Shown here: one piece after another, positions 14,103-46,742 of the stretch
Layout: every line of letters begins with the position of its first letter
Position numbering within the stretch: the first letter of the stretch is position 1
Translations under genes and position numbers: made by a program
The notes under the pieces: generated by a model
What the model was told of the DNA's origin: nothing
What the model saw: the letters and a program-made list of their open reading frames with translations, nothing else
Databases searched by the model: none
Source of the DNA: a virus
Reading direction: 5' to 3' (one strand)
Length of the DNA stretch: 46,742 nt
Virus record (IMG/VR): IMGVR_UViG_3300022602_000160
Span: 1-46,742 of that record

Positions 14103-14138
14103 CTACTTATGCAAAAATAGGGCAAAAAATGCCCTAAA
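14103..14138 (-). promoter_or_regulatory. Putative phage late promoter A
   Basis: Minus strand reads TTTAGGGC, 17 bp, TGCATAAGTAG. It is one of five copies with identical 17-bp spacing, all leftward and intergenic. The TTTAGGGC box includes the lysozyme stop codon. The leader to ATG 14054 is about 50 nt and contains a normal ribosome-binding site. Confidence 0.7.
14113..14136 (-). terminator. Intrinsic terminator inside late promoter A
   Basis: The minus strand has TAGGGCA, a T5 loop, TGCCCTA, then TTTTT. This perfect 7-bp stem with a U-tract lies just after the lysozyme stop. It occupies the space between the two promoter boxes, so termination of lysis mRNA and initiation of the next mRNA share the same DNA. 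Confidence 0.75.
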
Positions 14139-26199: not shown

Positions 26200-26235
26200 C
26201 TACTTATGCAACTTTTAAGCAAAAATCGCCCTAAA
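26200..26235 (-). promoter_or_regulatory. Putative phage late promoter B
   Basis: Minus strand reads TTTAGGGC, 17 bp, TGCATAAGTAG. It lies directly downstream of the capsid-gene terminator and ~95 bp before ATG 26103. The transcript would have a GC-rich leader with inverted segments (26135-26185). It would drive the post-capsid structural and fibre operon. Confidence 0.7.
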
Positions 26236-29947: not shown

Positions 29948-29977
29948 ACGCCAATGCTCCTTGCGTTATACAACGCT

Positions 29978-30166
29978 TTAGTTTTCATCATCCTCAGTTA
30001 AGAGGGCTTCTAGAATCGAAAAGGCTTGCTTTAAACCATCTCGATTACCCAGTACTCTTTGATAATCATCAAAGGTGTGGATATTGGAACCTGAAGCTAG
30101 AACTTCGGTTGTTTCTCTATCCGCTTCTTTCAAGCGGCTTATATACTCTGATATTATGTCCCTCAT
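29978..30166 (-). CDS. Small acidic protein directly behind late promoter C
   Basis: A 62-residue protein (MRDIISEYISRLKEADRETTEVL...FSILEALLTEDDEN), helical and acidic. Its ATG is only 4 nt from the TGCATAAGTAG box and no ribosome-binding site is seen, so a nearly leaderless mRNA is possible. It precedes the GroES-like gene by 30 bp. Function not recognised. Confidence 0.65.
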   Translation of the reverse strand: MRDIISEYISRLKEADRETTEVLASGSNIHTFDDYQRVLGNRDGLKQAFSILEALLTEDDEN

Positions 30167-30170
30167 ATTA

Positions 30171-30206
30171 CTACTTATGCATAAAGGCGGAAAAATCCGC
30201 CCTAGA
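30171..30206 (-). promoter_or_regulatory. Putative phage late promoter C
   Basis: Minus strand reads TTCTAGGGC then 17 bp then TGCATAAGTAG; it deviates at one T of the upstream box. The box overlaps the stop codon of the HNH gene. The 17-bp spacer holds GGCGGA-TTTT-TCCGCC, a hairpin with a short U tail. It would drive the GroES-scaffold-capsid operon. Confidence 0.7.
30186..30201 (-). terminator. Hairpin inside late promoter C
   Basis: A perfect 6-bp GC-rich stem (GGCGGA/TCCGCC) with a 4-nt T loop, immediately followed on the minus strand by TTTA. The short U tract makes it a weak or partial terminator for the HNH mRNA. Confidence 0.45.
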
Positions 30207-34706: not shown

Positions 34707-34742
34707 CTACTTATGCAAAAATACCAAGGTGTTCGCCCTAAA
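34707..34742 (-). promoter_or_regulatory. Putative phage late promoter D
   Basis: Minus strand reads TTTAGGGC, 17 bp, TGCATAAGTAG. The box overlaps the terminase stop codon. The next ATG (34698) is 8 nt further. It would drive the portal operon separately from terminase. Confidence 0.7.
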
Positions 34743-36183
34743 CTGCGTAAGGGTTGTATCTTTTCTTTCTTAGCTCATCATCCACGTAATCATAATCCCT
34801 TGACGGTAGGTAATCTAACTGAATCCATCCCGAATCCCTCAACACACGCAAGGCTTGTGAAAGAGTATCCACATAGTCATCATGCCCACCCGACTCTGGA
34901 AACGAACACACTTGACGAATAAACCTCTTCGCCCATGGCGCCACCTCACCTGGCTTATCTGGATCCTCGGGTATGTAAATCTTCCCCTTAGCCACCAGCG
35001 GAGCCACGATGTTTAAACGCTGCACTTTGTCAGCTCGCCCAGGGTTGTATCCTCTCACTGGAACGCCGGCACCTTGGAGTTCTTGTATTAAGGAAATACC
35101 AGCGGACTTATCTTCCATCAATATGAGATCCGCTTTCCTACCTTTGCCAAACGTATTGTCTGCACCGTATACAACTTCCTTAAAATCATCAATCACCTTA
35201 CGACGCAACTCAGGATACCCCAAATGGTTATCCCACGCATCCAACAAGATAATCGCTGTACCAATATCGGTGGATTCAAACACACCCCATACCGAACAAG
35301 CTGTTGGGTCATTAGCCGTTTTCTCAGAGGTCGCTGGGTCATAACTAGCAATCAAGTACTCTAAGTTCGGAGATGGTTTATTTGCTGGCCATAACTTAAA
35401 CCAACGTCTTTTGATAATACCAGCGTCTTCTGGATCCAGAATCGCACCATAGATCTCTTGCTTACCCAAGTCCGTACCATCATACGTCTCTAATGCCTTA
35501 AAGAACGATTCTGATAAGTTTGCCTTGTTAGCATACGAGCTGGCATTTACCACATAAACATCGCCACCAACCTTACCCTCATTCAGATCTACGATTAGTT
35601 CTCTGGGTTTGGGTGTGGTGGTGACAATCTGTTGCACCCGTTTAATCCTCGGGTCACGAAGACGCATAGTAAACTGTGCTTGGTCCCATGCATCATCTAA
35701 ATAATCAAACGCGGCTAACTCGTCATACCATCCACCGTGGAATTGCTTACCACGATAACGCTCTGGTTCAGAACCAGGAATGCCCTGTATGATGGAGCCG
35801 TTCTTTAATGTAATCTCAAATAAAGATTTGTTATATGTTTCAAGTAGTTCTTGGGGAATGATGTTCAGTAAACCAGAATCCCCTTCAAAACAAGTCGCAC
35901 GAATGTCGTTCGATGTTGGAGCAGTAACCAACCAACGAGTTCCATTAAACATCGCCGCACGTAATCCAATCCAATTGGACGCTGTGTATGTCTTACCCGC
36001 ACCACGACCCGCCAACATGAGCATGGTGTCGTACTCCCCATCGTCGGGCTCTCTCTGATGGTCTAGGGCGGATAGTTCCCACCTCACACGCCAAAGAGCT
36101 AAAGCCAATTGGTCTTTAGGCCAGTGTGCGTTCTTAAGTGCAAAAGTCGCTAGGATCTTTTCTTGTGTTTGATTTAATGCCAT
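34738..36183 (-). CDS. terL: Terminase large subunit (packaging ATPase/nuclease)
   Basis: A 481-residue terminase that pumps DNA into the prohead and cuts concatemers. ATPase domain: Walker A AGRGAGKT (residues 58-65), Walker B GGWYDELAAF (D-E, near 150) and coupling motif QQIVTTTPKP (near 190). Nuclease domain: YLIASYDPATSEK (first Asp, about 280), LILMEDKSAG (about 365) and HDDYVDTLSQAL (about 445) with the metal-binding acidic residues. Length and motif order are complete. The start overlaps the end of the Hint-domain gene by 10 bp. No intein is in it. Confidence 0.95.
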   Translation of the reverse strand: MALNQTQEKILATFALKNAHWPKDQLALALWRVRWELSALDHQREPDDGEYDTMLMLAGRGAGKTYTASNWIGLRAAMFNGTRWLVTAPTSNDIRATCFEGDSGLLNIIPQELLETYNKSLFEITLKNGSIIQGIPGSEPERYRGKQFHGGWYDELAAFDYLDDAWDQAQFTMRLRDPRIKRVQQIVTTTPKPRELIVDLNEGKVGGDVYVVNASSYANKANLSESFFKALETYDGTDLGKQEIYGAILDPEDAGIIKRRWFKLWPANKPSPNLEYLIASYDPATSEKTANDPTACSVWGVFESTDIGTAIILLDAWDNHLGYPELRRKVIDDFKEVVYGADNTFGKGRKADLILMEDKSAGISLIQELQGAGVPVRGYNPGRADKVQRLNIVAPLVAKGKIYIPEDPDKPGEVAPWAKRFIRQVCSFPESGGHDDYVDTLSQALRVLRDSGWIQLDYLPSRDYDYVDDELRKKRYNPYAV

Positions 36184-37163
36184 ATTGGTAAGAAACCCTG
36201 ACCGACTACGAACGGCACTTCTGTTTCGATGTGCACTACCGATCGAGGTTCTATTTTCTCCACTCTCTTTATCATGCGTCGATTAGTTCCCTTATGACGC
36301 TTTTCTGTTTTTTGATGAATATGAAGCTGTATGTCTGTTACAAAAACTAATGTGTGTGCCTTAGATATCTTGTTCTCTGATACTAAGGTCTTAACCCCCA
36401 AGGATTCCAAGATCGCTTGCAAGGTAAACAAAAACCTAATGTCCTTAGCAAATATCATGAACTCATGGCGCAAAGGATCATAGCATCCTGGTTTGGTCGC
36501 AATCAATCCACGCATGAATTCAATCCGCTGTTCTACTGAACCCATTGTATACTCAATCGGTAACTTGTTCGGTATAGTAGGGTAGCGTGTTAGAAAACTA
36601 TTCCCAATCGACTGCCTAATAAACAAAGAGTTCTTTTTCTTTTCAAAGAACCATCCACAGGACTTTGCCTTCTTGTGCACATAGTCCACCCAATCAGGAT
36701 GGAAAGTGAAAGCCACACGAGCTTTCCTTTTACCAAACCACAAGCCAGCAATGAAGGGAGGTACTGGATGATCCTCTGTGGGATACTGCAATGGCTTGGA
36801 GTTCTCTATGGAAAACTGATTCCATCCCCGTCTATCTAACAAGCCCTTCTCAAGTAGCTGGGTTGGTGTATAGTACTTCTGTGTATACCAACGCTTATAC
36901 TTTCCCTTGTGTCTGGATTCTCGTTCCCTATCACTCGTAGTAAACGCTGGGAATGTTGAATGGTTATCAGTCTCCACCGATACGCCATCTTTCATTTGCA
37001 CAAAGTACATATCCCTAGCAACATACTGCTGAACTGTTTTAATTGGTACAGGATACCCATCCCACGAATACACATAATCATCTGGGGTTAACTGATGTGC
37101 TAATTTCCAGCCCCCTATAATCGGAACTGGAGTATCTGCTGCTATTGCCAAGTTAATACCCAA
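36174..37163 (-). CDS. Stand-alone intein-like Hint protein with degenerate LAGLIDADG domain
   Basis: A 329-residue protein with full intein layout but no exteins. Block A: AADTPVPIIGGWKLAHQL (8-25); block B: T65-D-N-H68 (TxxH). A central homing-endonuclease part has FIAGLWFGKRK (137-147) and RIEFMRGLIATKPG (about 213-226), where the usual catalytic Asp of both LAGLIDADG motifs are replaced. Block F/G: VVHIETEVPFVVGQGFLPIWH, ending in His with no terminal Asn. So the endonuclease looks dead and C-terminal cleavage unlikely. Start is TTG 37163 (or TTG 37151); no ATG is available. It overlaps terminase by 10 bp. Confidence 0.8.
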   Translation of the reverse strand: MGINLAIAADTPVPIIGGWKLAHQLTPDDYVYSWDGYPVPIKTVQQYVARDMYFVQMKDGVSVETDNHSTFPAFTTSDRERESRHKGKYKRWYTQKYYTPTQLLEKGLLDRRGWNQFSIENSKPLQYPTEDHPVPPFIAGLWFGKRKARVAFTFHPDWVDYVHKKAKSCGWFFEKKKNSLFIRQSIGNSFLTRYPTIPNKLPIEYTMGSVEQRIEFMRGLIATKPGCYDPLRHEFMIFAKDIRFLFTLQAILESLGVKTLVSENKISKAHTLVFVTDIQLHIHQKTEKRHKGTNRRMIKRVEKIEPRSVVHIETEVPFVVGQGFLPIWH

Positions 37164-37414: not shown

Positions 37415-37661
37415 GGGCGGTCGCAGATTTAAACACACGAGCCTGCTTGCCAGCTTGCCGCCGTTTTTTCGCTTTCGCTGCCAAGTCCCTCTTGATTGCT
37501 CTTTCCAATGCTTCTTGACTGAGCCAGCGTTCGCCACGGAATCCTGAGGCAAGCACATCCGAGCGATAGTTGTAGAAGAACAACAGTCCTTTACCAGTGG
37601 CATCTGGACATGGATCTCCGAACTTGAACGGCTGATTAGTTTCTGGATTTAATCTTTTCAT
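37407..37661 (-). CDS. Paralogue of the HNH protein N-terminal module (no HNH)
   Basis: An 84-residue protein, ATG 37661 being 4 nt past the late-promoter box; a frame extension to 37688 would begin upstream of that box. MKRLNPETNQPFKFGDP aligns with MKRLNPKTKKPFKHGY of the HNH protein at 30202-30723, and a later GFRGERWLSQEALERAIKR aligns with GQREEKWMQADMFAEAVAK. The nuclease part is absent and the end is basic (KKRRQAGKQARVF). It could be a remnant of an HNH gene or a DNA-binding protein on its own. It heads the late arm. Confidence 0.72.
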   Translation of the reverse strand: MKRLNPETNQPFKFGDPCPDATGKGLLFFYNYRSDVLASGFRGERWLSQEALERAIKRDLAAKAKKRRQAGKQARVFKSATAHV

Positions 37662-37665
37662 ACAT

Positions 37666-37701
37666 CTACTTATGCAAACTCTATACACTTAGTGCCCCAA
37701 A
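37666..37701 (-). promoter_or_regulatory. Putative phage late promoter E (head of late arm)
   Basis: Minus strand reads TTTGGGGC, 17 bp, TGCATAAGTAG. It is the most upstream of the five copies, in the large intergenic region, and would start the terminase operon. The next ATG is 4 nt from the box, so the mRNA may be leaderless. Confidence 0.7.
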
Positions 37702-37716
37702 TTGTTGCGTTTATCG

Positions 37717-37745
37717 TAGTTCTATACATACTATGGCTCGGATAA
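37717..37745 (+). repeat. Left arm of perfect 29-bp inverted repeat
   Basis: This 29-bp arm (TAGTTCTATACATACTATGG... to 37745) is exactly reverse-complementary to 37930-37958, with 184 bp between. Partial further copies of the TAGTTCTATACA core occur at 37965-37979 (inverted) and 37994-38005. Confidence 0.95.
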
Positions 37746-37785
37746 CCCATTGATTCCAAAGGGTATTCCCTTCTAAAAGACAGGG

Positions 37786-37897
37786 TATCCATAGTATCCA
37801 CGGTCAAAACGCATATTGTACCCTATATTTTATTTTATTTTTTTAAATTAAAAATAAAAAATAAGAAAATACTATGGATACTATGGATACTATGGAT
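37786..37897. other. Nested iterons flanking a pure A/T tract (origin-like)
   Basis: TATCCATAGTATCCA (37786-37800) is inverted relative to three tandem TACTATGGA units at 37870-37897. Between them, 37824-37864 is 41 consecutive A/T bases. Iterons in inverted array around an AT-rich unwinding segment, nested within a 29-bp inverted repeat, are typical of replication origins or multi-operator control regions. No initiator gene is visible nearby. Confidence 0.55.
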
Positions 37898-37929
37898 TTA
37901 AAAACGGAAAGTTCAATAAAAACAATAGC

Positions 37930-37958
37930 TTATCCGAGCCATAGTATGTATAGAACTA
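37930..37958 (-). repeat. Right arm of perfect 29-bp inverted repeat
   Basis: Exact reverse complement of 37717-37745, followed by a shorter repeat GTATGTATAGAACTT at 37965-37979. It closes the symmetrical origin-like block. Confidence 0.95.
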
Positions 37959-38113
37959 TCCACGGTATGTATAGAACTTAGAGGCGTTCATCCTAGTTCT
38001 ATACAACTACTAGGTGTTTTTGCAAAAAAAAATATATAGCAAATTGAAAAAGCTTGAGTTTGGTTGGGGCCCCCGCCGCCGGAGACACAGGGAGTCATAA
38101 AAGCCGACCGGTC

Positions 38114-38147
38114 AAAATAAAAAGCCCCCCTTAGCATATTAGGAGGG
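38114..38147 (-). terminator. Leftward intrinsic terminator
   Basis: The minus-strand RNA would have CCCUCCU, a 9-nt loop, AGGGGGG (one G-U pair), then C-UUUUU-AUUUU. The plus strand has no such U tract. A leftward terminator here means that leftward transcription enters from 38150-38700, maybe a small RNA or antisense transcript across the repeat cluster. Confidence 0.6.
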
Positions 38148-38175
38148 TCAAACTTACAATATGCTTACACCTGGC

Positions 38176-38455
38176 GAAGTGAGTGCTTACTAACTTGCTG
38201 CATTGCAACATAGTGCTAAGTTAGTGAGTGCTTACTTACTTGGCTGCAATGTGAGTGCTTACTAACTTGCTGCATTGCAACATAATGCTATGTTAGTGAC
38301 TACTCACTTAGCCAGGATGCTAAGTAAGTGGATGCTCACTTAATAATCTGATAGTTAGGCAAATTAGCTAAGTAAGTGAGTGCTAACTTGTTGCACTGCA
38401 GCATGTTGCAACGCAACAATTTGCCCTAAGTGAGTGAGTGCTTACTTACCCTGGA
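38176..38455. repeat. Cluster of GTGAGTGCTTAC-type repeats
   Basis: About seven related units of GTGAGTGCTTACT or CTAAGTAAGTGAGTGCT, in both direct and partly inverted arrangement, together with TTGCTGCATTGCAACAT segments. A 34-bp stretch at 38179-38212 is repeated exactly at 38251-38284. Dyads such as TAAGT...ACTTA and TTGCA...TGCAA are frequent. It may be an array of protein-binding sites for replication, packaging or repression. Confidence 0.85.
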
Positions 38456-38661
38456 ATCCATCCTAGCTATTCTGCTCAGATCGCTCTATATTGCACGATC
38501 GCAAGGTAGTTAATAGGTAGCTATCAAAAAAGCATAAAACGCAACTATGCGTGTGCGAGACGGCTCTATGGCGATGAGCTAAAATATGCCAAATTATCCA
38601 TACTTTCACTGTATAAAATGACAGTTTAGGGTTTTCCCTAATTGACAATCCGGTATCCTTC

Positions 38662-38693
38662 AAAAACCCAGGGTTTACCCTATTAGGGTTTTT
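38662..38693. terminator. Bidirectional terminator before the rightward arm
   Basis: AAAAACCC, then an inner AGGGTTTACCCT palindrome, then GGGTTTTT. The outer 8-bp arms with A/T tails can terminate on either strand, and the inner hairpin is an alternative fold. It insulates the rightward genes from the control region. Confidence 0.6.
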
Positions 38694-38695
38694 AG

Positions 38696-38726
38696 TTTAC
38701 TTTTAACTGTATATTTTCTGTAGAAT
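38696..38726 (+). promoter_or_regulatory. Weak candidate early promoter
   Basis: TTTACT (38696-38701), 19 bp, TAGAAT (38721-38726) preceded by TG. Four of six bases match the sigma-70 boxes at each position and spacing is long, so evidence is modest. Position just after a terminator and 34 bp before the first rightward ATG fits an early promoter. Confidence 0.35.
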
Positions 38727-38760
38727 TGTGGTATCTAAACGATAAATAAAGGGTTACAAA

Positions 38761-38883
38761 ATGACTACATATAAAGAATATTTGGTGTACATAAATTCTA
38801 TTAACGTTAAACCAATGAGCGAAAATAGGTTTTTAGAATTGATCATGAGCGGATACAATCCATTAACTAGATCTTATAACTAA
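38761..38883 (+). CDS. Small protein at the head of the rightward arm
   Basis: A 40-residue ORF, MTTYKEYLVYINSINVKPMS...GYNPLTRSYN, with AAAGGG 7 nt upstream of its ATG. It ends 13 bp before the next gene. No family is recognised; composition (Tyr/Asn-rich, balanced charge) is protein-like. It is the first gene of the early arm, where small host-directed proteins are common. Confidence 0.6.
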   Translation: MTTYKEYLVYINSINVKPMSENRFLELIMSGYNPLTRSYN

Positions 38884-38896
38884 GGGAAAACACACC

Positions 38897-39634
38897 ATGC
38901 AAAACAATAAACCGACAACACGCAAGAGTCTATTAGGTTTTGATACCAATGCGAAAACCGTAAAGGGGGAACAGCTAGGGTTTTTAACTGGCATATTATA
39001 CTTGGCGCCTAGTGACATTAGCGGGCACCAAGTATGCCCAATGGCAAAAATAGCAAAGTGCGATATTGCTTGCCTTTATACGAGCGGACGTGGCGCATTT
39101 AATAGTATTCAACAAGCGCGCATCAATAAAACCAAATACTTTTTTGAAGACCAGCAAAACTTTATGCTTAATATTGTGCTAGATATTCAAAAGGGCATTA
39201 AACAAGCTAATAAATTGGGCTTAACGTTGCTAATTAGATTAAATGGTACGAGCGATATACGTTGGGAAAATATCTATTTTGAATATAACGGCAATAAGAC
39301 TAATATTTTCGAGCTATTCCCTAATGTACAGTTTTATGATTATACGAAAATAGCTAATCGTAAAAACTTGCCAAGAAAATATGACCTTACGTTTTCTTTT
39401 AGTGGTGTCGTTGAATATATGCCCTTTGTTAATAAAGCAATCGACAATAATATGCGCATTGCTACAGTTTTCCGCTCAGTGGATCATATTCCTACTGAAT
39501 TTATGGGATTGCCTGTAATTGGTGGAGACGATAGCGATATAAGACACTTAGAGCCAAAGGCGCATATTGTTGCGTTATACGCAAAGGGTAAAGCAAAACA
39601 TGACAAAACTGGTTTTGTAGTGGATACAATTTAA
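38897..39634 (+). CDS. Conserved phage protein with Cys cluster (GP88/DUF7227-like)
   Basis: A 245-residue protein. KTVKGEQLGFLTGILYLAPSD, then VCPMAKIAKCDIACLYTSGRG with C47, C55 and C59 (C-x7-C-x3-C), then LIRLNGTSDIRWENI, VQFYDYTKIANRKNLP and YDLTFSFSG. I recognise this pattern from a widespread phage family named gene product 88 / DUF7227, whose function is unknown. The Cys cluster could hold an iron-sulfur cluster or zinc; the conserved G-T-S-D and Y-D-Y-T-K motifs suggest an enzyme. The gene lies early in the rightward arm and has a GGGAAAA site. Confidence 0.8.
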   Translation: MQNNKPTTRKSLLGFDTNAKTVKGEQLGFLTGILYLAPSDISGHQVCPMAKIAKCDIACLYTSGRGAFNSIQQARINKTKYFFEDQQNFMLNIVLDIQKGIKQANKLGLTLLIRLNGTSDIRWENIYFEYNGNKTNIFELFPNVQFYDYTKIANRKNLPRKYDLTFSFSGVVEYMPFVNKAIDNNMRIATVFRSVDHIPTEFMGLPVIGGDDSDIRHLEPKAHIVALYAKGKAKHDKTGFVVDTI

Positions 39635-39635
39635 T

Positions 39636-39839
39636 ATGATAACAATCAATCGATTAAATAAAGGGAGCGGAGGGGTTTATATCCTCCGCTGTAATGCGAA
39701 AGACGATAGCGCGGAATTTGAGGCGCTAGTCAAAAAAACTTACCAAGGCATTGATTTTATGCAATCGCCAAGGGTAGAACGTGCAACGGATCAAAATGGG
39801 GACCTTGTTGTAAAAATCAAATATTATGGACTAGACTAA
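39636..39839 (+). CDS. Small unknown early protein
   Basis: A 67-residue protein (MITINRLNKGSGGVYILRCNAKDD ... VVKIKYYGLD), mixed alpha/beta, starting 1 bp after the previous stop. Not recognised. Coupled translation with the preceding gene is likely because no strong ribosome-binding site is visible. Confidence 0.68.
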   Translation: MITINRLNKGSGGVYILRCNAKDDSAEFEALVKKTYQGIDFMQSPRVERATDQNGDLVVKIKYYGLD

Positions 39840-39851
39840 AAGGGGAAAACT

Positions 39852-40166
39852 ATGTCAACAATGCATGAGACGATCGAGATTGAATTTAAGCAAAACAGAA
39901 AACCTAGTAGAGCGGTAATTATGCGCACTATTGGGGAGTATTTAAAACAAGGCGGCAAAAGTTTTGCCCTATCATGGGGGGAAAATTGGATCGATATCCT
40001 ATGGCATGATAAGGCGGAGCAGTGGACGGGTACTGGATGGATTAAAGATATCGGAGGCGATGATATCGCTAGGGAATTAAACCAAATGAGAAAGCAAGCT
40101 ATTAAGCAATTAAGGGAAGAGCTACTAGAAGATTTTAATTATGTAGGTTCACGTCATCATTACTAA
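39852..40166 (+). CDS. Small unknown early protein
   Basis: A 104-residue protein, ATG preceded by AAAAGGGGAAAACT. It has a beta-like N-terminal half (ETIEIEFKQNRKPSRAVI, FALSWGENWIDILWHDK with many Trp) and a C-terminal charged helix (ARELNQMRKQAIKQLREELLEDF). No family recognised. The layout resembles small host-takeover or DNA-mimic type proteins, but there is no evidence for either. Confidence 0.7.
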   Translation: MSTMHETIEIEFKQNRKPSRAVIMRTIGEYLKQGGKSFALSWGENWIDILWHDKAEQWTGTGWIKDIGGDDIARELNQMRKQAIKQLREELLEDFNYVGSRHHY

Positions 40167-40178
40167 GGATATAACACC

Positions 40179-40358
40179 ATGAAAACTTATAAAATTATGT
40201 TAGAGATTGTGTCGGATGCTCCTCCCGACTGGATTGTACCGAGTATAGAAGTACAGTTAAACGACAATGAGAGCATTAAATATTTTGATTACACCATGGA
40301 GGAGGCAGAAGTAAAGCAGTTTATTAAAGAACACTTTACACACGTACATATAGGGTAA
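40179..40358 (+). CDS. Small acidic early protein
   Basis: A 59-residue ORF starting at ATG 40179, 7 nt after AAGGAT. It is acidic (MKTYKIMLEIVSDAPPDWIV ... MEEAEVKQFIKEHFTHVHIG), with a beta-alpha pattern. It fills the gap between two larger genes with proper spacing. Function not recognised. Confidence 0.65.
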   Translation: MKTYKIMLEIVSDAPPDWIVPSIEVQLNDNESIKYFDYTMEEAEVKQFIKEHFTHVHIG

Positions 40359-40375
40359 ACCCCTATTGACCTACT

Positions 40376-40402
40376 AAATACCATTCTTTTAGAGTGGTAT
40401 TT
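40376..40402 (+). terminator. Hairpin between early genes (possible weak terminator)
   Basis: AAATACCA, 11-nt loop, TGGTATTT: a perfect 8-bp stem followed by GTTGG and no T run. It might pause or process mRNA. A TTGACC box at 40366-40371 and TAGAGT at 40390-40395 (18-bp spacing) could alternatively be a promoter. Confidence 0.35.
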
Positions 40403-40435
40403 GTTGGAGTTAATAAGCACAGGGAGCGATGAATT

Positions 40436-40624
40436 ATGAAAGACATAGAGCAAATATTTAAATTAGCTAATGCGGAACTAGAAAACAATCTTAAAGAAAT
40501 GGATAAAGACATAGCTACACTTATCCATGATTTGAGAACTTTTAATAGTCGTAAACCAACGGGCAAAGCAAGCATTTTAGAAAATACCATCAAAACTTTA
40601 TACAGATTGGAGTTAACAAAATGA
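40436..40624 (+). CDS. Small helical early protein
   Basis: A 62-residue, helical, charged protein (MKDIEQIFKLANAELENNLK ... LENTIKTLYRLELTK). ATG has AGGGAGCGATGAATT upstream; the stop overlaps the next start (ATGA). Coiled-coil propensity suggests a protein-binding partner. Not recognised. Confidence 0.68.
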   Translation: MKDIEQIFKLANAELENNLKEMDKDIATLIHDLRTFNSRKPTGKASILENTIKTLYRLELTK

Positions 40625-40842
40625 GCAAGGGATTAGAACGAGATATAAAGCAATACTCTTATCACTATAGCAGTAAAGAGATTGAGCAAATTGCGGATGA
40701 TGCCCTGAATATGATGTGTGCTTATGTGCAAGATAGACTAGGCATAAAAACGGGGGATGCCGCATCGATGTTTTGGCAAGGTTTACCAAAAGAGATCATA
40801 GAGGATTATGTACGTACTGAAATTAAATGGGGGGATTATTAA
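40621..40842 (+). CDS. Small early protein
   Basis: A 73-residue protein (MSKGLERDIKQYSYHYSSKE...DALNMMCAYVQDRLGIKTGDAASMFW...). It is helical, with a compact amphipathic pattern, and abuts the following gene without gap (TAA then ATG). No family recognised. Confidence 0.68.
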   Translation: MSKGLERDIKQYSYHYSSKEIEQIADDALNMMCAYVQDRLGIKTGDAASMFWQGLPKEIIEDYVRTEIKWGDY

Positions 40843-41097
40843 ATGATTTTATATACGATTGATGACTTATTTTTTTCAGTAAACGATATTTATGACCAGT
40901 GGGATGAGGGGGACTTGCATTATGACGATGCTAAAGAGCTATTAAATAATTGTTGCGCTGAGTTTATGAAACAACATAAACCACTGCAACACACGATGAA
41001 GTTTAAAAACGTTGATGAGATGGTTTTATGGTTAGTGGATAATAATGTGGATGACCTCCCTGTATCCCTAACCCTACATTTGGAGAATGAAAAATGA
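40843..41097 (+). CDS. Small acidic early protein
   Basis: An 84-residue acidic protein (MILYTIDDLFFSVNDIYDQWDEG ... LPVSLTLHLENEK), about one quarter Asp/Glu. Starts directly after the previous stop, and ends overlapping the next gene (ATGA). The acidic surface is like that of DNA mimics, but this is only a compositional remark. Confidence 0.66.
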   Translation: MILYTIDDLFFSVNDIYDQWDEGDLHYDDAKELLNNCCAEFMKQHKPLQHTMKFKNVDEMVLWLVDNNVDDLPVSLTLHLENEK

Positions 41098-41255
41098 TAA
41101 CTAATGACATATTAAATAAACTAAGAACAGATAGGGATATGTTGCAACACATATTAGATAAAGATTTTCTTAAGCATGGTGTGGTTGAGCTAGAATCTAA
41201 GTTAGATTATGCTAAGAGTTTAATTGAATGGATTGAACAGGAGGGAATGGTATGA
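41094..41255 (+). CDS. Small helical early protein
   Basis: A 53-residue ORF joined to both neighbours by ATGA overlaps (start 41094, stop 41255), MITNDILNKLRTDRDMLQHI ... YAKSLIEWIEQEGMV. It is helical and charged. The precise double overlap makes it a real gene although short. Confidence 0.68.
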   Translation: MITNDILNKLRTDRDMLQHILDKDFLKHGVVELESKLDYAKSLIEWIEQEGMV

Positions 41256-41656
41256 TTACCAGTAAGAAGGATATTGTTTTGACGCATTTAAAAACTAGAG
41301 CAATGACAGTGCATGAGTTAGCGGATGTTTTCTTTCCCAAGATCACCTATGCATATTTGCGGACCATGTTGCATAAAATGAATAAGCAAGGTCTGTTATC
41401 TGTTGAGGTAGAGCAGACTACATTTTATCGTGGTGGGCATCGTGATATATTTAGGTATAAGGCAATTGAGAACCCTATCATTGTGGAAGAGGCAGATCGT
41501 GATTTGTTGCCAGTAAGACGGAGTATTTTAGAAGGTAAGAAAGCGCCTAAGAAACCATGTCTTACATTGCCTAAGTTAGATATTGAGAAACGTAAAGAGT
41601 TAATGGTAAAGGCATCCCCTTTGTATGCCTGGTTTTTAGGAGATAAATACTTATGA
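41252..41656 (+). CDS. Putative winged-helix DNA-binding protein
   Basis: A 134-residue protein. The first ~70 residues follow a winged-helix pattern: SKKDIVLTHLKTRAMTVHEL, FFPKITYAYLRTMLHKMNKQG (recognition-helix region) and LLSVEVEQTTFYRGGHRDIFRYKA (wing). The C-terminal half is basic with LPVRRSILEGKKAPKKP. It could be a regulator of early or late transcription, or a DNA-end protein. Its presence in the same arm as the sigma factor lacking region 4 makes a co-regulator role conceivable. Fold call is by pattern only. Confidence 0.62.
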   Translation: MITSKKDIVLTHLKTRAMTVHELADVFFPKITYAYLRTMLHKMNKQGLLSVEVEQTTFYRGGHRDIFRYKAIENPIIVEEADRDLLPVRRSILEGKKAPKKPCLTLPKLDIEKRKELMVKASPLYAWFLGDKYL

Positions 41657-41823
41657 TCGATTTAGATAAACTATATGCAAAAGCCAATGAAGTGTTTTTA
41701 GCGTGGGAAGAAAAGCAGTTTCCAGATGGCAACACACCATTTACGGACGAAGAGCGCTTGATGTATATGGAAGGTTGGGTTGATGGGTACACATTTTTAA
41801 ATCGAGGAGCAAAAGATGACTAA
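41653..41823 (+). CDS. Small acidic early protein
   Basis: A 56-residue ORF (MIDLDKLYAKANEVFLAWEE ... RLMYMEGWVDGYTFLNRGAKDD) beginning inside the end of the preceding gene (ATGA) and overlapping the next by 8 bp. The E-E-R-L-M-Y-M-E-G-W-V-D-G-Y segment resembles small helical proteins found in many phage early regions. Function unknown. Confidence 0.66.
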   Translation: MIDLDKLYAKANEVFLAWEEKQFPDGNTPFTDEERLMYMEGWVDGYTFLNRGAKDD

Positions 41824-42028
41824 TTACGAACAGTTTGTAACGAACTACAGACGTTATACGCACGCAGCACGAACAACGGATGAGGCATACAAAACACCTC
41901 AGTACTGCTCATCGATCACCAAATACGAGTCCCATTCGCAGTTTTGGGAGCATTTATTGGGTTGGGTGTTCCATGGTTTATTTATTGCTATTATTTCTTC
42001 ATTAACTTTTTGGGGTATGTCATTATGA
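41816..42028 (+). CDS. Small protein with C-terminal membrane anchor
   Basis: A 70-residue protein: hydrophilic first 40 residues (MTNYEQFVTNYRRYTHAAR...), then one transmembrane helix at ~48-68 (GWVFHGLFIAIISSLTFWGM). Tail-anchored topology puts the N-terminal part in the cytoplasm or periplasm depending on insertion. AGGAGC lies 10 nt upstream of the ATG. May act on the host envelope (superinfection exclusion is a common role of such proteins), without evidence here. Confidence 0.66.
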   Translation: MTNYEQFVTNYRRYTHAARTTDEAYKTPQYCSSITKYESHSQFWEHLLGWVFHGLFIAIISSLTFWGMSL

Positions 42029-42168
42029 TTAACTGGGAACAACAATTTGCTGATGAGTTTATTTTGGATTTATTGGGAACACCACGCATAGGGGATGATT
42101 TAAAGCTTAAGGATGCTAAGGACATTGCGGATCAATTAGATCAATGGGAGGATGATTATGAAGGGTAA
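42025..42168 (+). CDS. Small acidic early protein
   Basis: A 47-residue protein from ATG 42025, which overlaps the preceding stop (ATGA); a frame extending upstream to 41944 would overlap the membrane protein for 85 bp and is not favoured. MINWEQQFADEFILDLLGTP ... DQLDQWEDDYEG is strongly acidic at its end. Not recognised. Confidence 0.62.
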   Translation: MINWEQQFADEFILDLLGTPRIGDDLKLKDAKDIADQLDQWEDDYEG

Positions 42169-42322
42169 TGATTTGTTGGGTCAGTATGCTCAGTACATTG
42201 AGGAACACATGAATATTGGCAACGGAACCATGCTGATCAATGCTATGGAGCGAGGATGTTATTTGGAGGACTTTTGTGACTCCATCAACATAACTGTTGA
42301 GCAATTTGAAAGCCTCCAATGA
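42158..42322 (+). CDS. Small acidic early protein
   Basis: A 54-residue ORF (MKGNDLLGQYAQYIEEHMNI ... LEDFCDSINITVEQFESLQ). GGGAGGATG upstream, 11-bp overlap with the gene before and ATGA overlap with the exported protein after. The helical, acidic sequence is like a small regulator; function unknown. Confidence 0.64.
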   Translation: MKGNDLLGQYAQYIEEHMNIGNGTMLINAMERGCYLEDFCDSINITVEQFESLQ

Positions 42323-42609
42323 AGCGCCATGGTTTGATTGTTGCGTTCATCCTGACTCTGACCCCAATTTCTAGTTATGCTAAGGAGTTTGCGGTAACGG
42401 CTAACAAGATTGGGGGAGCGACATACCTAACTGATGATACGTGTAGGTTTAATAAGCATTTACCCGAGGCATATACGACAGATGCCAAGGGTCATAAAAC
42501 CTATGCGTGTTATTGGTTTGGTGCGACAAAGATATTTTTTGAGACCGAGGATAAGGTGGTTAGATCGCTACCTAAAAACATTTTTGAAGTAATCCAAGAT
42601 GTGTTATAA
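42319..42609 (+). CDS. Small exported (periplasmic) protein
   Basis: A 96-residue protein with a typical Sec signal: K-R at 2-3, hydrophobic 5-17 (GLIVAFILTLTPIS), cleavage likely after SYA21. The mature part has two Cys (C42, C64), which could form a disulfide in the periplasm. Phage genes of this type may alter the envelope to block other phages or act in lysis timing. Its end holds the host-type promoter for the sigma gene. Function is inferred only from export. Confidence 0.75.
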   Translation: MKRHGLIVAFILTLTPISSYAKEFAVTANKIGGATYLTDDTCRFNKHLPEAYTTDAKGHKTYACYWFGATKIFFETEDKVVRSLPKNIFEVIQDVL

Positions 42610-42610
42610 T
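42584..42610 (+). promoter_or_regulatory. Host-type extended -10 promoter for the sigma gene
   Basis: TGTTATAAT (42602-42610) is a perfect extended -10; TTGAAG at 42584-42589 is a moderate -35 with 15-bp spacing. It overlaps the stop of the preceding gene. The start of the sigma gene lies ~30 bp downstream behind TTGGAG. Confidence 0.6.
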
Positions 42611-42644
42611 TCGAAGACCCCCACACTAATTGGAGCATTACCAA

Positions 42645-43220
42645 TTGAAATCGCGTAAGAATGCTTTGACGGATTATCTTCAGTCTCTATATAAAATACC
42701 CACTTTGACGCGTGAAGAGGAGGCATTACTTGCCCCTTTGATCGCTCAAGGTGATGCCCAGGCACTAGAAAAGTTAGTTACACACAATCTAAGGTTTGTT
42801 GTCTCTGTCATTAAGAGGATGCCTAACTGGTCGCATTCTAATATGCCGATGGAGGATCTATTAAGTTTTGGAAATGAGGCATTGATGAATGCTGCCAAGA
42901 CATGGAAACCACAAGGCAAAATACGGTTTGCATCGTATGCTAAGAAATTTATTCACTTTGATGTGCAACGTGGTGTTGCGAACACCAAGAACATCATCCG
43001 TTTACCAGTCAATATTACCGAAGAGATAAGACGTATCAAGTATAAAGAGCGCGTTCTATCTCAGAAACTAAAACGACAACCGACTACCTTGGAGCTAGCA
43101 GATAAGCTCGGTGTTTCCGTTGAGCGTATTGCGTACATCAATTCAATACTCAGTAAAGAGCCAGTAAGCTTAGAGATTTTCAATTCCGAACATTTAGAAC
43201 AAGAAGGTTATGATGACTAA
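42645..43220 (+). CDS. Phage sigma-70-family factor lacking region 4
   Basis: A 191-residue sigma factor. Region 1.2: YLQSLYKIPTLTREEEALLA; region 2.1-2.2: LVTHNLRFVVSVIKRM and MEDLLSFGNEALMNAAKTW; region 2.3-2.4: KIRFASYAKKFIHFDVQRGV, then NIIRLPVNITEEI; region 3: KRQPTTLELADKLGVSVERI. The protein stops soon after, with no region 4, which normally reads the -35 box. The Trp pair of region 2.3 is replaced, suggesting a different -10 choice. Start: TTG 42645 is 9 nt after GGAG; an in-frame TTG at 42630 lacks a site. T4 gp55 also lacks region 4 and serves late genes. Confidence 0.9.
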   Translation: MKSRKNALTDYLQSLYKIPTLTREEEALLAPLIAQGDAQALEKLVTHNLRFVVSVIKRMPNWSHSNMPMEDLLSFGNEALMNAAKTWKPQGKIRFASYAKKFIHFDVQRGVANTKNIIRLPVNITEEIRRIKYKERVLSQKLKRQPTTLELADKLGVSVERIAYINSILSKEPVSLEIFNSEHLEQEGYDD

Positions 43221-43551
43221 CGAACAGTTAAAAGCTTACAAAAGATTTATTCGTGCAGTAGAGAATGTAAAGCTAGTAAAAACAAAAACCAATTTAAATA
43301 AACCTTACATCCCGCATAGAGATTATTCAGACAGTATTGATTTTGAGGGTTTAAACCATCCGTTGTTTATAGTTAATGATCCATGGATGGAGTACAAGGC
43401 AGCAAGTAGTGCATGGTGGGCAATAGAACCAAGTTACAGAAATGACGAACGACTAAGAGCCTCTAGGGGCGACTATGAAGGTTCTGATAATTGGGATGAG
43501 CCTAATGAAGTTGAAGATGTGTATCAGTATTTTACAGGAGGTAGTAAATGA
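43210..43551 (+). CDS. Small early protein, unknown
   Basis: A 113-residue charged protein (MMTNEQLKAYKRFIRAVENV..., WMEYKAASSAWWAIEPSYR...). It overlaps the sigma stop; AAGAAGG is nearer the ideal distance from the second ATG (43213). Trp/Tyr-rich middle and acidic end. It is co-translated with sigma and could be an accessory factor, in the way T4 gp33 assists gp55, but no similarity is visible. Confidence 0.7.
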   Translation: MMTNEQLKAYKRFIRAVENVKLVKTKTNLNKPYIPHRDYSDSIDFEGLNHPLFIVNDPWMEYKAASSAWWAIEPSYRNDERLRASRGDYEGSDNWDEPNEVEDVYQYFTGGSK

Positions 43552-43829
43552 AAAAACTAAAGATTAAGCGTAAGGGTTTTGGATTTGAGTTGGTGCTTGA
43601 GGGAGAGATTAAAGTTGATGATTCCAAGATCAAGCCATACGAGCAGTATCACAAGGAGGAGACCGAGAAGTTATTAGCTGATGAGATTTTTAACTACTTA
43701 GCCACAATTGTTCCAAGTGTTACTTGTACTGTGGGGGGCTACCGAGATTACAACATGCAAATATATGGTGCAACAGCATTGAAAGCATTAGCAGAACACC
43801 TAGCAAAGAACATTGACAAGGAAGAGTAA
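43548..43829 (+). CDS. Small early protein, unknown
   Basis: A 93-residue protein (MKKLKIKRKGFGFELVLEGEI ... IVPSVTCTVGGYRDYNMQIYGA). Basic N terminus, then a mixed alpha/beta body ending in a helix (ALKALAEHLAKNIDKEE). Start overlaps the preceding stop, end overlaps the methyltransferase start (TAATG). Not recognised. Confidence 0.7.
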   Translation: MKKLKIKRKGFGFELVLEGEIKVDDSKIKPYEQYHKEETEKLLADEIFNYLATIVPSVTCTVGGYRDYNMQIYGATALKALAEHLAKNIDKEE

Positions 43830-45019
43830 TGAATTATTTATCAGTATGTAGTGGAGTGGAAGCCGCGACTGTAGCATGGCATCCACTGGGTTGGAAGCCA
43901 GTGGCTTTCAGTGAAATAGAAAAGTTTCCGAGCCAAGTGTTGGCTCATCATTATCCAAACGTTCCTAATCTTGGGGACATGACTAAATATAAGGAGTGGA
44001 ATTTAAATGAATCAATTAACCTTCTCGTTGGAGGAACACCCTGCCAATCATTCTCAGTTGCTGGTCTTAGAAAAGGGCTTGAAGACCCTAGGGGCAACCT
44101 CATGCTTACCTATGTGGGACTTCTTGACAAGTTTAGACCCAAGTGGTGCGTTTGGGAAAACGTGCCAGGTGTCCTCAGCAGTAACGGAGGACGGGATTTT
44201 GGTTCCTTCCTCGGGGCGTTGGTCGAACTCGGGTATGGGTTCGCCTACCGCGTGCTTGATGCTCAACACTTTGGAGTACCACAAAGACGCAGAAGAGTCT
44301 TCGTTGTTGGATGTCTTGGAGACTGGTCCAGTGCCGCAAAGGTTCTTTTTGAGCCAGAAAGCTTGCGAAGGGATCCTCCGAAGAGCCGAGGTAAGAAATC
44401 GGGAGTTGCCAAAAGCCCTCAAGGATGCTCTCCAGATGGTAGCCACACCATCGGAACCTTAATGGCTAGGGACTATAAAGGCATCGGTAACCAAGACCTA
44501 AAAGACGGTCGTGGATTGATTGTATATGAAACACACCCTGCCGATTCTCGTGTGAAAGAGATGGGGGATGTGTGTCAGACGGTTACGTCAAGGTGGGGCA
44601 CTGGTGGTGGTAATGTGCCTATTGCCTTAGCTGAGAACACCATTGGTAGACAGCCTACTAATGGAGGTAACGGCACGGGATATACGGAGGGTGGACCTAT
44701 GTATACTTTGAATGCTACGGGTGTACATGGTGTTGCGGTACCATCATCTAACTTGGCAGGTACATTGCGTGCTAATCCAGGGAGTGGTTTCAGATCAGAT
44801 GGTACTCCAGTTGAAGGTGTGGTAACCTATCAGTCCGCAGTACGTAGATTGACACCTATTGAATGCGAAAGACTACAAGGGTTTCCAGATGACTACACCA
44901 GCATCAAAGAAAAATGCCCAGATGGTCCGAGATATAAGGCGATGGGTAACAGTATGGCAGTACCAGTGATGCATTGGATTGGGCAACGTATACAAGGAGT
45001 TGAAAATGAGATTATCTGA
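43829..45019 (+). CDS. DNA (cytosine-5)-methyltransferase
   Basis: A 396-residue C5-methyltransferase that puts a methyl group on cytosine of phage DNA. Motif I LSVCSGVEAATVAW (4-17), motif IV GGTPCQSFS with catalytic C72, motif VI E110-N-V, motif VIII QRRRRVFVVG (about 152), a variable target-recognition part (~190-330) and motifs IX-X RLTPIECERLQGFPDDYT and GNSMAVPV. All key motifs are present, so it should be active, probably to shield DNA from host restriction. No partner restriction enzyme is present. A second gene lies entirely within codons ~60-210. Confidence 0.95.
   Translation: MNYLSVCSGVEAATVAWHPLGWKPVAFSEIEKFPSQVLAHHYPNVPNLGDMTKYKEWNLNESINLLVGGTPCQSFSVAGLRKGLEDPRGNLMLTYVGLLDKFRPKWCVWENVPGVLSSNGGRDFGSFLGALVELGYGFAYRVLDAQHFGVPQRRRRVFVVGCLGDWSSAAKVLFEPESLRRDPPKSRGKKSGVAKSPQGCSPDGSHTIGTLMARDYKGIGNQDLKDGRGLIVYETHPADSRVKEMGDVCQTVTSRWGTGGGNVPIALAENTIGRQPTNGGNGTGYTEGGPMYTLNATGVHGVAVPSSNLAGTLRANPGSGFRSDGTPVEGVVTYQSAVRRLTPIECERLQGFPDDYTSIKEKCPDGPRYKAMGNSMAVPVMHWIGQRIQGVENEII
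44007..44462 (+). CDS. Overlapping gene nested in the methyltransferase
   Basis: A 151-residue ORF in the +1 frame relative to the methyltransferase, starting at ATG 44007 exactly 10 nt behind AAGGAG. SGMGSPTACLMLNTLEY (about 75-91), LETGPVPQRFFLSQKACEGILRRAE (about 104-128; shown in parts) and LPKALKDALQMVA (C terminus) recall a family of phage proteins with the motif VPxRFFLSxKACxGILRRAE that I have seen next to or over C5-methyltransferase genes. This makes it likely to be a real second product and not a shadow frame. Role unknown; perhaps anti-restriction or methyltransferase partner. Confidence 0.7.
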   Translation: MNQLTFSLEEHPANHSQLLVLEKGLKTLGATSCLPMWDFLTSLDPSGAFGKTCQVSSAVTEDGILVPSSGRWSNSGMGSPTACLMLNTLEYHKDAEESSLLDVLETGPVPQRFFLSQKACEGILRRAEVRNRELPKALKDALQMVATPSEP

Positions 45020-45086
45020 GCGTGAGCGTAGGGAATTGCGTGTATGGATTTACTTAGCTAAGCGTAGAGAAAGAAAGTACGCATGA
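45006..45086 (+). CDS. Very small basic protein
   Basis: A 26-residue Arg-rich ORF (MRLSERERRELRVWIYLAKR...). Its ATG overlaps the end of the methyltransferase (AAGGAG 9 nt upstream), and its stop overlaps the start of the next gene (ATGA). Overlap on both sides supports it as coding, although it could be only a translational bridge. Confidence 0.5.
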   Translation: MRLSERERRELRVWIYLAKRRERKYA

Positions 45087-45247
45087 CTAAGTACTATGTG
45101 TACGATGAGGAAGGCTTCATGCTGCGGTGGTTTTACACCAAAGCTGAAGCTAACCAGTACATTGGTAGCAACCAGTGGACAATACAAGTTAAGAAAGCAC
45201 TAACACAGCAAGACTATTTTCAGTTGTGTGGTGCTTGCTTATTTTAG
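45083..45247 (+). CDS. Small early protein, unknown
   Basis: A 54-residue protein (MTKYYVYDEEGFMLRWFYTK...QDYFQLCGACLF), coupled by ATGA to the Arg-rich ORF. Aromatic-rich beta start and C-x-x-C at the end (CGAC). No family recognised. Confidence 0.64.
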   Translation: MTKYYVYDEEGFMLRWFYTKAEANQYIGSNQWTIQVKKALTQQDYFQLCGACLF

Positions 45248-45257
45248 GAGAAAAAAA

Positions 45258-45419
45258 ATGAGATGGGCAGTTAAACCCTATGTAGAATGGGAGTCTTGGT
45301 TTGCTTGGCATCCTATTCAAATCAATGGTGTCAATATTTGGCTTGAAAAAGTAGAACGAAAAGTTAAATGGGCGGACCTACATTTTACATGGTATGAATA
45401 TAGAGAGATTGAGAAATGA
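45258..45419 (+). CDS. Small Trp-rich early protein
   Basis: A 53-residue protein from ATG 45258, which follows TAGGAG by 6 nt; a GTG at 45228 in the same frame is less likely because it overlaps the gene before. Trp is extremely frequent (MRWAVKPYVEWESWFAWHPI...): eight in 53 residues. Ends with an ATGA overlap. Not recognised. Confidence 0.66.
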   Translation: MRWAVKPYVEWESWFAWHPIQINGVNIWLEKVERKVKWADLHFTWYEYREIEK

Positions 45420-45760
45420 AAAAAGAGCCAAGCAAATGGACTAATTTTCCACAAGATTCTGATTACTTTGAAGTTTATAACCCATGGAAGCAAGATGAAG
45501 TGCTAAGGTTTTCTAAAGAGTTTATTGAGAGATATGGGGCACCAGAAAAGCATCAAAGACCACACAATACCGTTCTTGTGCCTTGCGATAAATTAAAAGA
45601 AATGCAAGACAGACTTGCCCATCTTGAAAAAATGATTGTTTGGTATCAAGACATTACTATGACAGGCACTCACTCTGAAGAATATGAGAATGGTTTTTGG
45701 GATGCTGTAGATTATGTTAAGTGGCATCAATTAGGAGCATACGACCTTGGACACAACTAA
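45416..45760 (+). CDS. Small early protein, unknown
   Basis: A 114-residue protein (MKKEPSKWTNFPQDSDYFEV ... EMQDRLAHLEKMIVWYQDIT). A coiled-coil helix spans ~65-85; the C-terminal third is aromatic and acidic. Start overlaps the preceding stop. Such proteins occur in phage early arms; none that I can name. Confidence 0.68.
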   Translation: MKKEPSKWTNFPQDSDYFEVYNPWKQDEVLRFSKEFIERYGAPEKHQRPHNTVLVPCDKLKEMQDRLAHLEKMIVWYQDITMTGTHSEEYENGFWDAVDYVKWHQLGAYDLGHN

Positions 45761-46004
45761 ATTAAATAATGAAATAGAAGTTTTAAAAAATCTATTGCAA
45801 AGATGTTTGCCTGTTGCATATTGTGTAAATGGAAATGGTGAAAAGTCACCTATGTTTAACATTGACCCAATGCTAGAAAGCGAAATTAGAGAAAAATTAG
45901 CACCAAAAGAGTTAAGTGATTTTGAAATTATGCAAATAAGCAGTTGCTATCCTGATAGATTGTATTTTGCTAGAGCAATACTAAAGAAAGCGAGTGAGAA
46001 ATGA
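45747..46004 (+). CDS. Modular early protein with FARAILKKASE tail
   Basis: An 85-residue protein using TTG 45747 as start (AGGAG 9 nt upstream; overlap with the previous gene 14 bp). N terminus coiled-coil-like (LNNEIEVLKNLLQRCLPVA), then ELSDFEIMQISSCYPDR and FARAILKKASEK. The same end appears in the protein at 46514-46738 and resembles the LSDEEI...FARAI tail common in phage proteins of beta-proteobacteria. Function unknown. Confidence 0.7.
   Translation: MDTTKLNNEIEVLKNLLQRCLPVAYCVNGNGEKSPMFNIDPMLESEIREKLAPKELSDFEIMQISSCYPDRLYFARAILKKASEK
45966..46004 (+). repeat. 39-bp gene-end repeat, copy 1
   Basis: Codes for FARAILKKASEK with stop and overlapping next start. Copy at 46700-46738 has one mismatch; its last 23 bp also occur at 46211-46233 as a non-coding leader. 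Confidence 0.9.
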
Positions 46005-46213
46005 TTGAAGGAAAAATAACAGAAATGGGTGAATTAAAAGAATACGAAGTTTTACCGCCCAAGACTTTGTATGTTGCTATTTACAGCTATTATGAAGATT
46101 TAAATTATTGGTGTGCTATGAGTAATATGGATAAAAACGAATTGATTAAATGTATGCAAAATAGTGGGTCATCCAAATACTACGGTGTTCGTATTTATTC
46201 AATTCCTATTTAA
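46001..46213 (+). CDS. Small early protein, unknown
   Basis: A 70-residue protein (MIEGKITEMGELKEYEVLPP ... CMQNSGSSKYYGVRIYSIPI). Begins in the previous stop (ATGA) and ends in the 23-bp repeat that serves as ribosome-binding leader for the following gene. Alpha/beta pattern; not recognised. Confidence 0.68.
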   Translation: MIEGKITEMGELKEYEVLPPKTLYVAIYSYYEDLNYWCAMSNMDKNELIKCMQNSGSSKYYGVRIYSIPI

Positions 46214-46229
46214 AGAAAGCGAGTGAGAA

Positions 46230-46517
46230 ATGAAACCACATAAACACGCAGAACTATTCAAAGCATGGGTTGATGGTGCTGAGATTCAGCAAAAGCATTA
46301 TATGTCACAAGGTGTTTGGAAAGATTTTGATGGGATTTGGGCTACGTCAGATTTATTTGAATACCGCATCAAACCTGAACCAAAGCCTGATATTTTTAAA
46401 TATTGGTATTTTTTTAAAAATTTGGCAGTTTTTGAGCCAAATGATAATAAACCAAATCTAAAATTAATTTTTGATGGCGAAACAGGAAAACTTAAATCAG
46501 CAGAGGTATTGAAATGA
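46230..46517 (+). CDS. Conserved small phage protein (EYRIKPEP type)
   Basis: A 95-residue protein: LFKAWVDGAEIQQKHYMSQG then WKDFDGIWATSDLFEYRIKPEPK. The pattern W-x-x-G-x-x-I-Q ... EYRIKPEP is one I recognise in many phage small proteins, function unknown. The C-terminal half (residues ~55-95) is more variable. The start lies behind GAGTGAGAA from the repeat; the end overlaps the next gene. Confidence 0.75.
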   Translation: MKPHKHAELFKAWVDGAEIQQKHYMSQGVWKDFDGIWATSDLFEYRIKPEPKPDIFKYWYFFKNLAVFEPNDNKPNLKLIFDGETGKLKSAEVLK

Positions 46518-46738
46518 AACAAGAACCTGTTGCTTATGTTGTAGGTGTTCGTAGATATGAGCCTGTAACGATTGGTACTGTTTTAAAAGTAGGAACACCA
46601 CTTTACACAGCACCAAAACAGTTAAGTGATGAGGAAATACTTGAAACAAGATGGAGCACAACTCTTGAATGTAAAGATGACAGAGATATGTGGATTTTAT
46701 TTGCTAGAGCAATACTAAAGAAAGCGAGTGAGAGATGA
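46514..46738 (+). CDS. Modular early protein (EPVAYVV...YTAP...FARAI type)
   Basis: A 74-residue protein: KQEPVAYVVGVRRYEPVTIG, TPLYTAPKQLSDEEIL and ILFARAILKKASER. The order EPVA / LYTAPxQLSDEEI / FARAI is a common modular pattern in phage early genes. Ends with the same 39-bp DNA as the gene at 45747-46004; an ATG at 46735 opens another gene that runs off the window after two codons. Confidence 0.75.
   Translation: MKQEPVAYVVGVRRYEPVTIGTVLKVGTPLYTAPKQLSDEEILETRWSTTLECKDDRDMWILFARAILKKASER
46700..46738 (+). repeat. 39-bp gene-end repeat, copy 2
   Basis: Matches 45966-46004 except one base near the 3' end. Located at the end of the last complete gene, again with overlapping ATG. Confidence 0.9.
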
Positions 46739-46742
46739 ATAC

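Follow-up and report, generated by a model that had tools for sequence, protein, structure and literature searches.

Split sigma factors and sigma factors without region 4 are already known from several systems. In phage SPO1, gp33 pairs with gp34 for late transcription. The gp55/gp33 pair of phage T4 has been called a split sigma; gp33 occupies the region-4 site without any discernible sequence likeness to sigma factors and reads no DNA, and T4 late promoters lack an upstream element (PMC2988020). The gp36 protein of phiEco32, also devoid of region 4, uses a single element at both middle and late promoters (PMC8948821). In Bacillus subtilis, sigma regions 2 and 4 are divided between SigO and RsoA (PMC8103513), and the SPO1 proteins gp28 and gp34 have been described as well (PMC9429907). 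Here we analyze the gene at 42645-43220 of IMG/VR virus record IMGVR_UViG_3300022602_000160 (46,742 nucleotides [nt] in full, hereafter the window), which encodes a sigma factor of 191 residues from which region 4 is truly absent. We consider it fairly likely that the sigma factor of this phage is split over two genes, probably made at different times, and that the second product, a small protein encoded outside the window and called R4P here, adds the reading of a box upstream of late promoters.

Among the known systems, T4 gp55/gp33 is the nearest arrangement. Like T4, the present system would combine a sigma without region 4, reading one -10-like element, with a separate small protein at the region-4 site, and the core sequence CATAAGTA equals the T4 late consensus TATAAATA at six of eight positions. 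T4 had been put forward as a model in a preliminary description of this DNA. The parallel holds for the missing region 4, but T4 is a partial model only, because gp33 reads no DNA and its late promoters have no upstream element. In addition, T4 activation uses the sliding clamp, whereas the system described here retains region 3, has a fixed -35-like box and a candidate partner with a predicted region-4 fold. phiEco32 gp36 is likewise a region-4-less sigma for middle and late promoters, but neither an upstream box nor a separate region-4 protein is described for that phage. The 7-11 gp47 protein differs in having region 4 on the same chain, and its promoters are bipartite. SigO-RsoA shares the division of regions 2 and 4 between two proteins; it is bacterial, however, and the pair acts jointly on few operons. 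We know of no stage at which one piece of SigO-RsoA works alone. SPO1 resembles the present case in its early-middle-late cascade with phage sigmas and in needing two proteins for late transcription. It differs in using distinct middle and late sigmas, whereas here one sigma would serve both classes and gain specificity via an added domain. The arrangement proposed here was not found described in the open-access literature.

A sigma factor gene without region 4

The open reading frame begins with TTG at 42645, with GGAG 9 nt upstream, and its stop codon ends at 43220; the TTG start is conserved in most close relatives. Pfam identifies Sigma70_r1_2, Sigma70_r2, and Sigma70_r3 in the product, all above curated cut-offs, and detects no region 4 in the protein. 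When aligned with five full-length sigma factors, its C-terminus falls within region 3.2, short of region 4, and six-frame searches with Sigma70_r4 and Sigma70_r4_2 give zero matches in the window or in relatives. Pfam and the alignment agree with the preliminary description, which had read the protein as regions 1.2, 2, and 3 with a stop before region 4. They also bear out its remark that region 2.3/2.4 is altered at usually conserved Trp positions: the equivalents of W433 and W434 are K101 and F102, and those of Q437 and T440 are F105 and Q108 (E. coli numbering). Residue 123, the H455 equivalent just ahead of region 3, is N, and the C-terminal tail is acidic (EHLEQEGYDD). The AlphaFold2 (AF2) model has a mean predicted local distance difference test (pLDDT) score of 79.5; Foldseek matches it to sigmaS and sigmaA structures, with sigmaS at the top (E 9e-11).

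Relatives of the sigma are found at 21 IMG/VR loci, 20 of them 83-89% identical, and relatives with as little as about 35% identity were recruited through primase and R4P searches. All 28 aligned relatives, the most divergent at 36% identity, end at the same point, directly after the motif EPxS. As a member of the sigma-70 family, the protein thus has the conserved regions 1.2, 2, and 3 but lacks a region 4 on its chain, and its relatives lack it too.

Two promoter classes and the upstream box

The core element TGCATAAGTAG is present in five copies in the window, every one on the minus strand (Table 1), and the window contains no other zero-mismatch matches. In 15 related records, 45 exact copies are found vs 0 matches to a reversed control pattern. 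All five window elements are late promoters, and GGGC lies exactly 17 nt upstream of each (5/5), which corresponds to the conserved box at -35-like distance noted in the preliminary description. The late consensus consists of AGGGCGGA, 17 nt from GGGC to TG, and then TTTGCATAAGTAG, with a conserved TA at positions 14-15 past the T of TG. With +1 set at the A 15 nt past this T, a presumed register, the box would be located at about -36 to -33. Two late window genes start exactly at the presumed +1; with a core-to-ATG distance of 15 nt, leaderless starts are therefore implied. We also considered whether the box is one arm of a terminator hairpin. Hairpins do form at some sites, but the sites at 34717, 26210, and 37676 form none and yet keep GGGC, and this explanation was rejected. 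The core element was not found upstream of the early arm, and a scan for early promoters at 37500-46742 yields 17 matches, below the shuffled-sequence count.

Across relatives, promoter sites were chosen solely by their core sequence, ahead of genes that tblastn had identified, and near-duplicates were removed. Late sites are those of the terminase small subunit and of four late window genes, and middle sites those of primase, exonuclease, SSB, and R4P. In this deduplicated set, to which many relatives contribute, GGGC with a 17-nt gap accompanies 37 of 38 late sites and none of 79 middle sites (Fisher value 9e-30, which ignores shared descent). The same split is seen inside single genomes: besides the window, the 67.8-kb relative G001 has the box at six of seven late promoters and at neither of two middle ones. 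G001 carries nine core elements on both strands. The three on the plus strand, which is the sigma's own, precede the primase, the exonuclease operon, and a stretch toward the terminase small subunit; ahead of the replication genes the core stands without the box. The earlier view that the elements are late and lie opposite the sigma arm consequently describes all five in the window, but not these three of nine in G001.

A further element marks some middle promoters. A palindrome like TTTCACAnTGTGAAA is located upstream of 14 of 30 exonuclease sites, always ending 29 nt before TG, and of 14 of 18 SSB sites, ending 16-19 nt before TG, so the two distances are about one helical turn apart. It is seen at 0/38 late sites and in 4% of shuffles. 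The palindrome is a possible site for a middle-specific regulator.

Core spelling is mostly uniform per genome and variable among genomes, while the box is nearly invariant. In G011, whose sigma is 45-49% identical, TGCATTAGTAT occupies the corresponding places. The spellings TGCATTATTAT (G017, G020, G022, and G023) and TGTATTATTAT (G021) occur with sigmas that have FVPH instead of FVV, and TGCGTATTAGT (G028 and G032) and TGCGTGTAATTAG (L062) occur with sigmas that have K at the H455-equivalent residue. FVP is thereby paired with TTATTAT, and K123 with TGCG. Respelling of the core largely extends through a genome and goes along with changes in the sigma, which remains the best candidate for the reader of the elements, as had been proposed.

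R4P as a candidate reader of the box

R4P is a 99-residue protein encoded in the middle operon with primase and helicase (G001 29717-30016, the same as L024:9717-10016). It is encoded by 533 IMG/VR stretches, with copies in clades A to E; the G011 gene has a boxless promoter to itself, immediately ahead of the ATG. The sigma and R4P are two separate genes that occur together. In a co-occurrence sample made up almost entirely of R4P records, the sigma is found in 20 of 30, and the ten records without it end, judging by coordinates, within about 8 kb upstream of R4P. AF2 models residues 40-99 as four helices (block mean pLDDT 88-95), and VIA-align gives Z 9.1 to sigmaE (1or7), with sigma region 4 making up nearly all of the top 50. 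The C-terminal 60 residues are thus predicted to adopt the region-4 helix-turn-helix fold, which by itself is no proof of function.

Sequence comparisons give fainter signals. Sigma70_r4_2 (PF08281) matches nine of 56 family members weakly, the best E of 7.7e-4 being below the curated cut-off, and several NCBIfam sigma models match weakly at 0.003-0.07. A sequence search of the PDB with R4P returns no notable sigma match. By eye, VTEKHWRYHYDKA of R4P aligns gaplessly with VTRERIRQIEAKA of RpoD. The N-terminal half of the recognition helix (EKHWRYHY) has a mean entropy of 0.41 bits vs 1.14-1.67 bits in the rest of the fold; within the R4P fold the recognition helix varies least, just as the box is nearly invariant. 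Residues 11-24, ahead of the region-4 fold, form a conserved acidic motif (LSDEExDPxEQDD, mean entropy 0.63 bits). R4P has zero matches among 50,697 phage records, and its sole match in bacterial genomes, on a contig binned as a beta proteobacterium, is weak evidence for a host.

The preliminary description had called for a second protein to read the box. This part probably stands, but the partners it named fail and R4P fits better. The translationally coupled neighbor at 43210-43551 is not found in clade D (G011 and L057), L169, or L062, and was rejected as a necessary box reader on account of its absence from G011, which keeps the box. The window copy has no Pfam or PHROG match; the family shares a conserved stretch like EYKEASxAWWxIEPxFRxxERLRAxRGDYG. 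The winged-helix protein at 41252-41656 was rejected with a sole ortholog, in L156, among the loci searched, as was the gene at 43548-43829, for which these loci contain no ortholog.

On balance, we favor a sigma factor that is assembled in time: core-only promoters would be used for middle genes, and region 4, encoded by a gene of its own that belongs to the middle class, would then add -35 recognition and direct the same holoenzyme to late promoters. From the sequences, their conservation and spacing, the promoter classes, and the predicted fold we infer binding to core polymerase, timing, recognition of each element, and middle promoter activity without R4P. The early arm, where no element was found, would probably be transcribed by host sigma. 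The early phage gene at 42645-43220 would supply regions 1.2 to 3, and its product would bind host core RNA polymerase and read the lone core, TGCATAAGTAG or the relative's own spelling, in a manner akin to an extended -10 or a T4 late promoter. Such core-only promoters would suffice for primase, SNF2 helicase, exonuclease, SSB, and R4P. Once made, R4P would dock at the usual position of region 4 and read AGGGCGG at about -36 to -31, and this reading would open the late promoters with the fixed 17-nt gap, those of the terminase, portal, and structural genes.

Several observations weigh against this account. R4P lies off this contig, and its presence in this genome is presumed; it is not seen because the window fragment stops before the middle operon. 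When R4P is compared by hhalign with region 4 of five primary sigmas, the match falls short of significance (probability 1.5%; the score is 16.6 vs a maximum of 13.7 with shuffled columns), and Foldseek of R4P against the PDB returns no match with E below 0.001. GGGC is replaced at two late sites, by GGAC in L100 and by AGGC at G001 63922. Core and sigma distances covary (Mantel r 0.63), a relation confounded by phylogeny, and two spellings are mixed in L038, L100, L103, L108, and L140; a strict one-to-one match of core and sigma was rejected because several genomes carry two spellings. Finally, some middle promoters have their own palindrome, and another factor may therefore be needed there.

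The sigma might instead read the core everywhere while GGGC is bound by a separate activator, of phage or host origin, that is not a region 4. Box readers of other kinds do exist, since T4 MotA reads a -30 motif (PMC11598898), and many small early proteins here have no assigned function. We nevertheless regard such an activator as unlikely: the box occupies the -35 position and its spacing does not vary, R4P combines a predicted region-4 fold and a strongly conserved recognition helix with presence in clades A to E, and both activators proposed earlier lack the required distribution. A host protein, moreover, would need to be common to the hosts of all these phages. It is still less probable that the sigma alone serves middle and late promoters in the manner of phiEco32 gp36, with R4P as a general co-activator or a gp33-like mimic that does not read DNA and with the box in some other role. 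T4 gp33 provides a precedent, as it binds to the beta flap but reads no DNA (PMC2988020). Papers on neither system describe an upstream box, however, while here the fixed-gap GGGC separates two classes, and conservation of the R4P recognition helix is as expected of a DNA-reading surface. The resemblance of the core to an extended -10 sequence would also suit a host sigma or host regulator as reader, with the phage sigma serving other promoters or diverting core polymerase. This we consider very improbable, given that the respelling of the core is largely genome-wide and tracks sigma residues and that the elements precede phage middle and late genes, with none found upstream of the early arm.

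Other features and significance

The coordinates of the features discussed are collected in Table 1.

Table 1. Sigma gene, neighboring genes, and promoter elements of the window, with palindrome examples from relatives
Feature	Coordinates	Strand	Remarks
Sigma factor gene, 191 residues, regions 1.2-2-3, without region 4	42645..43220	+	TTG start; Pfam, alignment
Region 2 of sigma (approximate), residues about 33-109	42741..42971	+	Pfam, alignment
Region 3 of sigma, residues 126-178	43020..43178	+	Sigma70_r3 match
Translationally coupled neighbor, 113 residues	43210..43551	+	in clades A-C and many others
Winged-helix-like protein	41252..41656	+	
Core element TGCATAAGTAG, late promoter	37666..37676	-	ATG at 37661
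GGGC box of 37666..37676 promoter	37694..37697	-	17-nt gap
Core element, late promoter	34707..34717	-	
GGGC box of 34707..34717 promoter	34735..34738	-	
Core element, late promoter	30171..30181	-	start codon 15 nt past T of TG
GGGC box of 30171..30181 promoter	30199..30202	-	
Core element, late promoter	26200..26210	-	
GGGC box of 26200..26210 promoter	26228..26231	-	
Core element, late promoter	14103..14113	-	G011 counterpart is TGCATTAGTAT with the same box
GGGC box of 14103..14113 promoter	14131..14134	-	
Palindrome examples	L147, L120, L150		upstream of SSB
Palindrome examples	L024:14632-14646 and relatives		upstream of exonuclease

Other parts of the window show further features. Between the diverging late and early arms, a 24-nt repeat resembling CTAAGTnAGTGAGTGCTTACTTA occurs six times in the intergenic region (38171-38449) and is a candidate origin or operator. 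The overlapping genes at 34738-36183 and 36174-37163 align with distinct portions of terminase large subunit profiles, and this subunit may be split over the two. Long stretches of short repeats with spacings in multiples of 9 nt are found inside two large minus-strand genes (22156-23870 and 18578-18966); G001 has similar short repeats at both contig ends. At 45966-46738, a 39-nt gene end, TTTGCTAGAGCAATACTAAAGAAAGCGAGTGAGAAATGA, is present in three copies of 69-97% identity, which suggests that the small genes there are duplicated.

If the proposed account is true, supplying region 4 later, as a separate protein, would open up a second class of promoters by means of one fixed box. This would be a very simple genetic switch and would reveal what region 4 contributes to an otherwise complete sigma. 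With its hundreds of variants, this is a natural system that lends itself to comparison of promoters and proteins. The account would also explain the timing of middle and late transcription across this large family of uncultured freshwater phages.
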